The notes beneath the pieces are model-generated. The model worked only from the letters and a program-made list of their open reading frames with translations, did not search any database and was not told the origin of the DNA. A DNA stretch of 58,975 nucleotides from an uncultured Burkholderiales bacterium (lineage in GTDB: Bacteria; Pseudomonadota; Gammaproteobacteria; Burkholderiales; Burkholderiaceae_C). The translations under genes and the position numbers were made by a program. Positions 34,718-38,705 of the stretch are shown here, piece after piece. Position 1 is the stretch's first letter. Each line of letters starts with the position of its first letter. The stretch is taken from contig CADEDE010000007.1 in assembly GCA_902825995.1 (NCBI GenBank), positions 1 through 58,975 of the forward strand, written 5' to 3'.

Positions 34718-35191
34718 ATGCAACGAATGATCCGCATCGCTGTTCCGGCCGTTGTGCTGGCGTTGCTGTCGGCGTGTGCCACGCGCCCGCAAACGAGCAA
34801 TGCACCGGTGTACAGCCCCACTCGCGGTGCCGGCGGCGTCACCAGTGCAAACGTCGGCTACGGCGTCGTGCGCAGCATCGAATCCCTGGGCAGTGCAAGC
34901 GAGCAGCCGCATGGCGGCGGTGCGGTGGTCGGGGGTATCGTCGGCGCCGTGATCGGCCGCCAGTTTGCCGACAGCAATTCGGGCAAGAACGTCGGTACCG
35001 TGGCCGGTGCCGTGGGTGGCGCGCTGATCGGCAACGAGATCGAGAAGAATTCGCGCCGTGATCAGCAAGGCGTGCGCGTGAATGTCCAACTCGACCAGGG
35101 TGGTCTGCGCAGCTTTGATTTCAAGAGCATCGGCGAGTTGCGCGTCGGCGACCGCGTGCGCATCGACGGCAATCAGCTTTACCGACTGTGA
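34718..35191 (+). CDS. Glycine-zipper lipoprotein (17-kDa antigen / SlyB-like)
   Basis: The 157-residue protein has a lipoprotein signal (MQRMIRIAVPAVVLALLSAC) with Cys20 lipidated. The central part is a glycine zipper (GAVVGGIVGAVIGRQFADSNSGKNVGTVAGAVGGALIG), a membrane-inserting motif, and the C-terminus is beta-rich (GVRVNVQLDQGG...RVRIDGNQLYRL). Such outer-membrane lipoproteins (SlyB/17-kDa antigen type) contribute to envelope integrity. The start follows an AGGAGA ribosome site. Confidence 0.87.
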   Translation: MQRMIRIAVPAVVLALLSACATRPQTSNAPVYSPTRGAGGVTSANVGYGVVRSIESLGSASEQPHGGGAVVGGIVGAVIGRQFADSNSGKNVGTVAGAVGGALIGNEIEKNSRRDQQGVRVNVQLDQGGLRSFDFKSIGELRVGDRVRIDGNQLYRL

Positions 35192-35209
35192 GTCGTTGCG
35201 CCTGTGAAC

Positions 35210-35215
35210 TAGAAT
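35210..35215 (+). promoter_or_regulatory. Candidate -10 of the thrS leader transcript
   Basis: TAGAAT matches TATAAT in 4 of 6 positions. A start near 35222 would give a leader of about 165 nt before thrS containing the Thr-rich ORF and the terminator. No strong -35 is visible. Confidence 0.35.
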
Positions 35216-35249
35216 CGCGGCACTCGAAACGAACAAGGGCGAGAAAGGC

Positions 35250-35297
35250 ATGACGGTTATGACACCGCGAACTACGGCCTCCGTGAAAACGGAGTAG
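35250..35297 (+). CDS. Thr-rich leader peptide upstream of thrS (probable attenuator)
   Basis: The 15-codon ORF reads [15 protein letters not shown] and ends in TAG. Five of 15 residues are Thr (codons ACG, ACA, ACT, ACG, ACG), two of them adjacent. An AAGGGCGAG stretch (35235-35243) lies a suitable distance upstream; the internal ATG at 35259 with AAAGG ahead of it is an alternative start that keeps four Thr codons. A hairpin covers the last codons (35275-35300) and an intrinsic terminator follows at 35339-35367, before thrS. This is the arrangement of amino-acid attenuators of aminoacyl-tRNA synthetase or biosynthetic genes. The role is inferred from the layout. Confidence 0.65.
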
Positions 35298-35338
35298 CCG
35301 CCCGCGCGCGTTTGCCCACTCAGCTTCCCCCTCCAGTG

Positions 35339-35367
35339 AAAAGCGCGGTCTTGCACCGCGCTTTTTC
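35339..35367 (+). terminator. Intrinsic terminator in the thrS leader
   Basis: AAAAGCGCGGT (35339-35349) and ACCGCGCTTTT (35355-35365) form an 11-bp stem with a 5-base loop followed by T residues. It ends 20 bp before the thrS ATG. A CCGCGC segment at 35302-35307 is complementary to the 5' arm (GCGCGG, 35343-35348) and could form a competing antiterminator. Confidence 0.8.
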
Positions 35368-35386
35368 TTTTGTCGAAGGTGCCGCC

Positions 35387-37294
35387 ATGATCTCGATTCA
35401 ATTGCCCGATGGCTCCAGGCGCGAGTTCGCGCAGCCAGTCACGGTCGCGGAAGTCGCCGCGTCGATCGGCGCCGGCCTGGCCAAGGCCGCGCTGGCCGGC
35501 CGCGTGAACGGCCAACTGGTCGATACCAGCCACCGCATCGAGGCCGATGCCCAACTGGCGATCGTGACCGACAAGGACGCCGACGGCCTGGATCTGATCC
35601 GCCACTCGACGGCGCACCTGCTGGCCTACGCCGTGAAGAGCCTGTTCCCCGAGGCGCAGGTGACGATCGGCCCGACGATCGAGAACGGCTTCTATTACGA
35701 CTTTGCCTACAAGCGCCCCTTCACGCCGGAAGACCTGGCGGCGATCGAAGCCAAGATGGCGGCGCTGGCCAAGATCGACGAAAAGGTTGAACGCCGGGTG
35801 CTGCCGCGCGACGAAGCGGTGGCCTTCTTCAAGGCCCAGGGCGAGCACTACAAGGCCGAGATCATCGCCGGCATTCCGGCCGACCAGGATGTCTCGCTCT
35901 ACCGCGAAGGCGCCTTCGAAGACCTGTGCCGCGGGCCGCATGTGCCTTCGACGGGCAGGCTCAAGCACTTCAAGCTGATGAAGCTGGCCGGGGCTTACTG
36001 GCGCGGCGACCAGGCCAACGAGCAGCTACAGCGCATTTACGGCACGGCCTGGCCCTCGAAGGAGGCGCTACAGCAGTACCTGACGATGCTCGAAGAAGCC
36101 GAGAAGCGCGATCACCGCAAGCTCGGCCGCGAACTCGATCTGTTCCACATGGAGGAGACGGCGCCCGGCCTGGTGTTCTGGCACCCCAAGGGTTGGGCGG
36201 TGTGGCAGGAAGTCGAGCAGTACATGCGCGCCGTCTATCGCGACAACGGCTACCTGGAGGTCAAGGGGCCGCAGATCCTGGACAAGAATCTGTGGGAGAA
36301 GACGGGCCACTGGGACAACTACCGTGACAGCATGTTCACGACCGAATCGGAAAAGCGCGAGTACGCGTTGAAACCGATGAACTGCCCCGGCCACGTGCTG
36401 ATCTTCAAATCGCAGATGCGCAGCTATCGCGAGCTGCCGCTGCGCTACGGCGAGTTCGGCCAGTGCCATCGCAACGAGCCCAGCGGCGCGCTGCACGGGA
36501 TCATGCGCGTGCGCGGCTTCACCCAGGACGACGGCCACATCTTCTGCACCGAGGACATGATCCTCGACGAATGCGTGGCCTATACGGCGCTGCTGCAAAA
36601 GGTTTACAGGGACTTCGGCTTTGGCGAAATCATCTACAAGGTGGCCACGCGGCCCGACAAGCGCGTCGGTTCGGACGGGCAATGGGACAAGTCCGAGTAC
36701 GCGCTGGTGGAGTCGCTGCGGCGCTCGGGCTGCGAGTTCAGTGTTTCACCGGGCGAGGGCGCCTTCTACGGCCCGAAGATCGAGTACACGCTGAAGGACG
36801 CCCTTGGCCGACCCTGGCAGTGCGGCACGATGCAGGTTGACTTCAACACCGCCGAGCGCCTGGGCGGCGACTACGTGACCGAAACCAGCGGGCGCGCCCA
36901 CCCGGTGATGTTGCACCGGGCCATCGTAGGCAGCCTGGAGCGCTTCATCGGCATCCTGATCGAGCAGCACGCCGGGGCGCTGCCGGTGTGGCTGGCGCCG
37001 CTGCAGGTGGTGGTGGCCTGCATCAGCGAAGGCCAGGCCGATTACGTCGGGGAAGTCGTGAAAACGCTTCAAAAACAAGGAGTTAGAGTAGAGGCGGATT
37101 TGCGGAACGAGAAAATCACGTATAAAATCCGCGAGCATTCAATGCAGAAGGTTCCGTTCATCCTGGTCGTCGGCGACAAGGAGAAGGCAAACGGGTCCGT
37201 TGCAGTGCGCGCCCGGGGCAACCTGGATCTTGGCGTGATGCCCCTCGAAACCTTCTCGCAGAAGCTCGCGGCAGACATCGCCTCCAAGGCCTAG
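35387..37294 (+). CDS. thrS: Threonyl-tRNA synthetase
   Basis: The 635-residue class II synthetase charges tRNA-Thr. It has the TGS domain (about 1-62), the editing domain with [11 protein letters not shown] and the ...CRGPHVPST zinc-type loop, the catalytic core with motif 2 (KPMNCPGH, with the zinc-ligand Cys; [15 protein letters not shown]) and motif 3 ([16 protein letters not shown]), and a C-terminal anticodon-binding domain. The ATG at 35387 is preferred: the 25 upstream codons of the longer frame run through the leader terminator. It is the first gene of the thrS-infC-rpmI-rplT-pheS-pheT-ihfA block, and expression is probably controlled by the leader. Confidence 0.97.
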
Positions 37295-37364: not shown

Positions 37365-37913
37365 ATCGCTACTTTCCTGGACCGCCGCACTCCGAACGCC
37401 GAGCGCAAGCACCGTCTCAACCGCGAAATCATGGCGCCCGAAGTGCGCCTGAACGGCCCCGAAAACGAGCCCCTGGGCGTGGTCAGCGTGATGGAAGCGC
37501 TGCGAATGGCGACCGAGCTGGATGTCGATTTGGTCGAGATTTCAGCCACGGCGGTGCCGCCGGTCTGCCGCTTGATGGATTACGGCAAGTTCAAATACCA
37601 GGAGCAGAAGAAGGCGGCGGAAGCCAAGAGCAAGCAGAAGATCATCGAGATCAAGGAAGTGAAATTCCGCCCCGGTACCGACGAAGGCGACTACAACATC
37701 AAGATGCGCAACCTGCGCCGCTTCATCGCCGAAGACGGCGACAAGGGCAAAGTCACTTTGCGCTACCGCGGCCGCGAGATCACGCACCAGGATATCGGCA
37801 TGAGATTGCTGGAACGCATTCGCGACGAGTTGGCCGATGTCTCGGTGGTCGAGAATATGCCCAAGCTCGAAGGGCGCCAGATGATCATGGTGCTGGCGCC
37901 GAAGAGGAAGTAA
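37365..37913 (+). CDS. infC: Translation initiation factor IF-3 (AUC start)
   Basis: The 182-residue IF-3 checks initiator tRNA and keeps the ribosomal subunits apart. The N-domain ([31 protein letters not shown]), the lysine-rich linker and the C-domain ([25 protein letters not shown] ... [13 protein letters not shown]) are complete. No ATG lies at the expected start: the codon is ATC at 37365, giving (M)[18 protein letters not shown], with AGAGG about 8 bases upstream. A rare AUU/AUC start is known for infC and allows autoregulation by IF-3. The first ATG (37431) would remove the N-domain start, so it is rejected. Confidence 0.93.
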
Positions 37914-38659: not shown

Positions 38660-38690
38660 AAGGCCGTCACCGGGGTGGCGGCCTTTTTTT
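38660..38690 (+). terminator. Intrinsic terminator/attenuator between rplT and pheS
   Basis: AAGGCCGTCAC and GTGGCGGCCTT form an 11-bp stem (one G-T) with a CGGG loop, followed by seven T (38684-38690). It lies just before pheS. No Phe-rich leader peptide is visible, unlike the pheM leader of enterobacteria. A shorter hairpin (GCGCCGC/GCGGCGC) sits upstream at about 38628-38648. Confidence 0.8.
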
Positions 38691-38705
38691 GTCTCGAAGC
38701 TACGA

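Follow-up and report, generated by a model that had tools for sequence, protein, structure and literature searches.

A predicted threonine leader-peptide attenuator of transcription upstream of thrS in Burkholderiales

In Escherichia coli the gene for threonine--tRNA ligase (thrS) offers the textbook case of translational autoregulation, in which the protein binds to a mimic of the anticodon arm in the 5' region of its own gene and blocks translation. In Gram-positives T-boxes also sense tRNA charging ahead of synthetase genes, binding the tRNA directly and dispensing with a leader peptide, whereas the thrABC leader (Rfam RF00506, Thr_leader) encodes a Thr-rich peptide before a terminator, reads Thr and Ile codons and controls biosynthesis genes. 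An attenuator with a Phe leader peptide governs the synthetase operon pheST in gamma-proteobacteria (PMC1262725), and synthetase leader-peptide attenuators are predicted for trpS/leuS of Streptomyces and hisS/hisZ of bacilli (PMC1262725; PMC2965389). For Burkholderia cenocepacia, PMC5688073 describes 82 short 5'UTR transcripts (some arising by attenuation), with tRNA-synthetases (BCAL3373, BCAL3436) among the genes concerned. A Thr leader of thrS is described in no title or abstract that we found in the open literature, a scope outside which the likeliest earlier predictions (Lopatovskaya 2010; Vitreschak 2004) lie.

Here we analyse a window of 58,975 nucleotides (the whole stretch of DNA under study) from an uncultured Burkholderiales bacterium (GCA_902825995.1, contig CADEDE010000007.1, positions 1 to 58,975 of the forward strand), in which, as the best-supported reading, thrS is very probably preceded by a ribosome-mediated (classical leader-peptide) transcription attenuator that would replace the translational operator. 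Such an element would be of the same class as that of pheST (with a different amino acid and a different gene, and no sequence relation being claimed), and would represent the same kind of synthetase control as the trpS/leuS and hisS/hisZ leaders, which serve other amino acids in other phyla and have a separate origin. With the thrABC leader it shares the richness in Thr codons before a terminator, the target and the use of Ile codons being different; with the E. coli operator it shares the controlled gene and the 5' location, the anticodon-arm look-alike being missing. In the window neither the covariance model RF00506 nor the T-box model found a match, and Rfam returned no family at threshold except a tRNA elsewhere; the proposed attenuator would account for a conserved stretch that lacks any such family. 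A weak match to the Burkholderia RNA ncS025 (12.8 bits against a threshold of 46) was not recovered at E<=0.5 in 20 relatives and was dropped. In one other locus (L205) RF00506 gave a sub-threshold match (26.4 bits versus 55), whose strand is opposite to, or the same as, that of the tRNA-leader reading according to the stored orientation.

All parts of the region lie on the forward strand. A probable -10 box (TAGAAT, 35210..35215) of the leader/thrS promoter, assigned from the position of TANAAT in relatives, is followed by a stretch conserved in an alignment of 54 leaders (ACAAGGGCGAGAAAGG, 35233..35248), inside which lies a putative ribosome binding site of the leader. The initial annotation had described an ORF of 15 codons with five Thr codons, two of them adjacent, and this is indeed present at 35250-35297 (ACG, ACA, ACT, ACG and ACG, the third and fourth adjacent); its start at 35250 was rejected, and since relatives keep the second ATG, the likely leader is the ORF of 12 codons, 4 of them Thr, from 35259 to 35297. 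Within it, segment 1 (CCGCGAACTAC, 35265..35275, codons Pro-Arg-Thr-Thr) is near-invariant in the alignment and has two roles: it carries the regulatory Thr codons, and it is the pairing partner of segment 2 (CCCGCGCGC, 35301..35309), which sits directly 3' of the leader stop and has as partner either segment 1 or the 5' arm of the terminator. A hairpin over the last leader codons and the stop, as originally proposed, appears in the minimum-energy fold at about 35276..35299. The intrinsic terminator (segments 3 and 4 with a T-rich tail, 35338..35371) has its 12 pairs at 35338-35366, 20 nt before the thrS ATG (35387), and is the only terminator-like site detected in a scan of 34900-35600; a hexamer of its 5' arm (GCGCGG, 35343-35348) is complementary to CCGCGC at 35302-35307 and would be the antiterminator partner. 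A probable thrS ribosome binding site (GAAGG, 35375..35379), read from the sequence, precedes the gene that we take to be under control, thrS itself (35387..37294; NCBIfam TIGR00418, 701.9 bits against a cut-off of 383.65).

Taken from the window alone, these elements stay within chance: the leader region folds with a z of -1.39, the shuffled region contains 0.7 terminator-like sites on average, and the pairing scores against shuffles are +0.4 (segments 1:2) and +0.2 (2:3). With 18 of 200 shuffles folding at least as stably, single-sequence folding was rejected as a proof of an attenuator; it is conservation in relatives that lifts the predicted elements beyond chance.

We therefore turn to 110 upstream loci picked by ThrS homology only (30 including the window's own, plus the best 80 of at least 584 matches), among which an ORF with the Arg-Thr core precedes thrS in 61, and the core GGTTATGACACCGCGAACTAC (<=5 mismatches) occurs in 58. 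By a strict rule a terminator accompanies the core in 54 of these 58, lying between ORF and gene as it does in the window. To relatives that keep the terminator and lack a Thr-rich ORF the initial annotation had given the weight of a refutation, and such loci do exist in part: a terminator-like hairpin also precedes thrS in 26 of the 52 core-less loci, a few of which carry divergent leaders (Vogesella L078, Aquitalea L080, Aromatoleum L091) and others none, and in six (L017, L039, L046, L049, L053 and L096) a window-like terminator lies within the last 100 nt before thrS with no Thr leader found upstream of the gene. A covariance model built from the 54 leaders and run, with stricter filters, on 399 genomes of the order gave a match at E<=0.01 in 154 genomes; among the 150 matches listed (from 133 genomes), 110 have thrS following on their own strand within 500 nt. 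Among those listed, the thrS-upstream share was 39/39 at E<1e-10 and 24/25, 10/12, 10/19, 20/34 and 7/21 in the successively weaker bins, and the 110 come from 19 families of the order. The window's own genome holds a single match (next best E=0.07). In a class-wide run on 185 genomes 8 had a match at E<=0.001, namely the window's own, G084 (of the same family) and six labelled as the same class (E 1.2e-4 to 7.0e-4). Four of the latter have a known thrS position, and in all four the match is on a different contig from the gene. A plasmid search gave nothing beyond partial matches of 72-75% in Sinorhizobium.

The codons of the leader bear the mark of selection for threonine. An in-frame ORF with the Arg-Thr core (CGAACT, CGGACT or CGAACG) is present in 153 of 220 upstream regions, 147 of them unique; f23 and f10 have leaders, for example MVMTPLTTLERLIR, that lie outside the CGAACT pattern and were left out of the counts. 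Threonine stands at the successive codons after the core in 83, 75, 49 and 30 of the 147 leaders, which amounts to 237 of 588 codons (runner-up Ser, 51), with ACC, ACG, ACA and ACT all in use; Arg-Thr-Thr occurs in 83 leaders and at least one Thr within four codons after the core in 113. Because the covariance model may favour the bases of the core, the count was repeated on 61 model-independent leaders, where Thr accounts in frame for 105 of the 244 codons at the four positions after the core, the two out-of-frame readings giving 1 and 11 of 244. The comparison thus presents what had been asked of it, namely Thr codons that are kept among other codons that vary, and the third bases of the Thr codons vary as well. 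The leaders are accordingly rich in the cognate codons, though not universally so, several families having just two Thr codons: 35 of the 147 leaders contain two in all and 4 contain one, and two is the rule in most leaders read from f3, f21, f35, f39, f44 and f47 (e.g. MTPRTCKAPEPRR and MTPRTFLLKR).

The retention of M-T-P-R-T even where families possess just two Thr codons would suit a leader that works as an arrest peptide or small protein, by virtue of its amino acid sequence and not of its Thr codons. We hold this to be highly improbable, as other families keep only Arg-Thr runs in peptides that are otherwise unlike and have little else in common (MTPRTTTKLWERR, MSFRTTTTGTLYLG, MFKRTTTTRISR, MFRTRTTTQSC, MNTNTTRTTTTRHT, MIMQLNRTTTTS), and as the conserved codons double as the arm that pairs with segment 2, which accounts for their fixed bases. 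Nine loci (L186, L188, L191, L194, L196, L180, L182, L202 and L203) have MTPRT or MSPRT, two Thr codons and a nearly invariant RNA core CCGCGAACT. One might speculate that the CGA codon kept in two-Thr leaders plays a part in pairing or in slow decoding.

A classical attenuator is further expected to possess three mutually exclusive pairings (1:2, 2:3 and 3:4) with segment 1 inside the ORF, and these were found, weak as they are in single sequences. The terminator stem shows compensatory changes in relatives (e.g. in 6/54 and 8/54 rows at the two outer modelled pairs), and the segment near the leader stop pairs both with the coding core and with the 5' arm of the terminator, the best sites overlapping by at least 4 nt in 43 of 54 leaders. 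Scored against shuffles one sequence at a time, the pairings come out weak (1:2, mean z -0.69, below -1.64 in 8/54; 2:3, mean z -1.17, below -1.64 in 13/54). Co-evolution emerged on swapping partners between families (103 of the 110 thrS-upstream sequences, 18 families, 153 family pairs): for 2:3 the own partners paired better than swapped ones in 123 of these pairs (mean -2.16 kcal/mol, with 0 of 500 permutations as low), and for 1:2 in 105 of 153 (mean -1.27 kcal/mol, 12 of 500 permutations as low), the permutations ignoring relatedness, so that these figures are not strict probabilities. When segment 2 was shuffled (62 sequences), 0 of 28 shuffles were as low for 2:3 and 1 of 28 for 1:2. 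The covariation of terminator and antiterminator arms that had been anticipated is hence borne out within the terminator itself and, between families, for segment 2 and the terminator 5' arm.

The mutually exclusive structures predicted earlier are found in the folds of the window. When the Thr codons are masked at a stage where the terminator still lacks its 3' arm, the RNA adopts the 2:3 structure, including the pairing of CCGCGC with the terminator 5' arm; with a ribosome at the stop the terminator forms, and the free RNA shows 1:2 plus terminator. In the full RNA the terminator is the favoured structure, and masking the Thr codons does not alter this, so the switch would have to be kinetic and act during transcription.

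Classical attenuation also calls for a promoter upstream of both ORF and terminator. Of 70 leader regions that have no tRNA motif close by, 42 contain TANAAT starting at -52 to -39 from GTTATG, whereas 45 other position ranges gave 2.4 on average and 6 at most. Transcription would accordingly start near 35222. In the window the promoter scan found no consensus -35/-10 pair. A promoter downstream of the terminator had been named as a contrary sign; what resembles a promoter here, the -10 box, is located ahead of the leader instead. A tRNA T-arm motif is found close upstream in 43 of 113 leader regions, and Rfam recognised a tRNA in 14 of 20 such upstream stretches (many of them tRNA-Val by eye); tRNA and leader may share a transcript. 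Whereas many relatives thus have a tRNA gene before thrS, the window has none there, and the gene upstream of the leader (34718-35191) encodes a glycine-rich, lipoprotein-like product of 157 aa with no NCBIfam match at 1e-10.

This neighbourhood raises another account of the hairpin, by which it would be the end signal of the upstream unit (the lipoprotein-like gene here, a tRNA gene elsewhere), thrS being reached by read-through and the ORF being incidental. The hairpins of the 26 core-less loci would fit it, as would those placed 29-85 nt before the aligned thrS start in 13 of 40 other Gammaproteobacteria. We nonetheless consider it very unlikely, given that the leader is kept beneath differing upstream genes, with a -10 box of its own, and that selection acts both on its Thr codons and on its arms. 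The same 13 of 40 hairpins imply that the terminator may predate the leader.

These 40 upstream stretches (out of 121 same-class genomes with thrS, mostly those closest in ThrS) were also searched for an operator of the E. coli type, by a rule that requires a hairpin of 5-7 bp with CGTA or GGTA in a loop of 7-9 nt at most 90 nt from the end. Loops of this kind match the Thr anticodons and are reminiscent of the E. coli thrS operator. The rule was satisfied in 22 of 40 (L289 among them is probably a tRNA), in 3 of 153 leader-bearing regions (each time within the terminator), in 1 of 67 other regions and in 14 of 800 shuffles, and it found no such hairpin before thrS of the window (L001). The contrast with E. 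coli control drawn at the outset is thereby borne out, and it bears on the possibility that thrS is repressed here, too, by ThrRS bound to the leader RNA, the Thr codons being a by-product. Although ThrRS controls its own gene in E. coli (PMC2965389), the distribution of the anticodon-arm-like hairpin, 22/40 against 3/153, makes such binding in leader-bearing regions almost certainly the wrong explanation. We lean, with moderate confidence, towards a scenario in which thrS control was switched wholesale early in the order: the ThrRS operator, which other Gammaproteobacteria still show, was lost, and the terminator that already stood between a tRNA gene and thrS received a Thr-codon leader in front of it, giving an attenuator whose regulatory codons are themselves a pairing arm.

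The attenuator reading of thrS draws on the parts and their order, the conservation before thrS, the selection on Thr codons, the covariation and co-evolution of the arms and the upstream -10 box, and the relatives uphold the logic first attributed to the region. We infer that the ORF is translated, that ribosomes stall on it, at which moment the switch acts and that it responds to threonine, in the following course. RNA polymerase would start near the predicted site, and the leader RNA that it produces would contain the very short Thr-rich ORF. A shortage of charged tRNA-Thr would make the ribosome stall on the Thr codons, where it covers segment 1; segment 2 would then pair with the 5' arm of the terminator while the 3' arm has yet to be synthesised, and thrS would be transcribed. 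With charged tRNA-Thr in good supply, the ribosome would reach the stop codon and cover segment 2, the terminator would form and transcription would end before thrS. In the absence of a ribosome segments 1 and 2 would pair, with the same outcome. In the 19 sampled families of the order thrS thus seems to read charged tRNA-Thr via a leader peptide, unlike in E. coli; the gene may represent a clean natural case of one gene exchanging regulatory systems, and its leader could serve as a ready reporter of threonine starvation in Betaproteobacteria.

Downstream, the gene order (NCBIfam, six proteins tested) is thrS, infC, rplT, pheS and pheT. Between rplT and pheS a terminator-like hairpin with a T run (38660-38691) lies ~15 nt before the pheS ATG (38706), and no Phe-rich leader ORF was seen by eye before pheS. 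Moreover, infC has an apparent rare ATC start at 37365-37367, after a GAGGA motif and in the reading frame of IF-3; in E. coli, infC is known for rare start codons.
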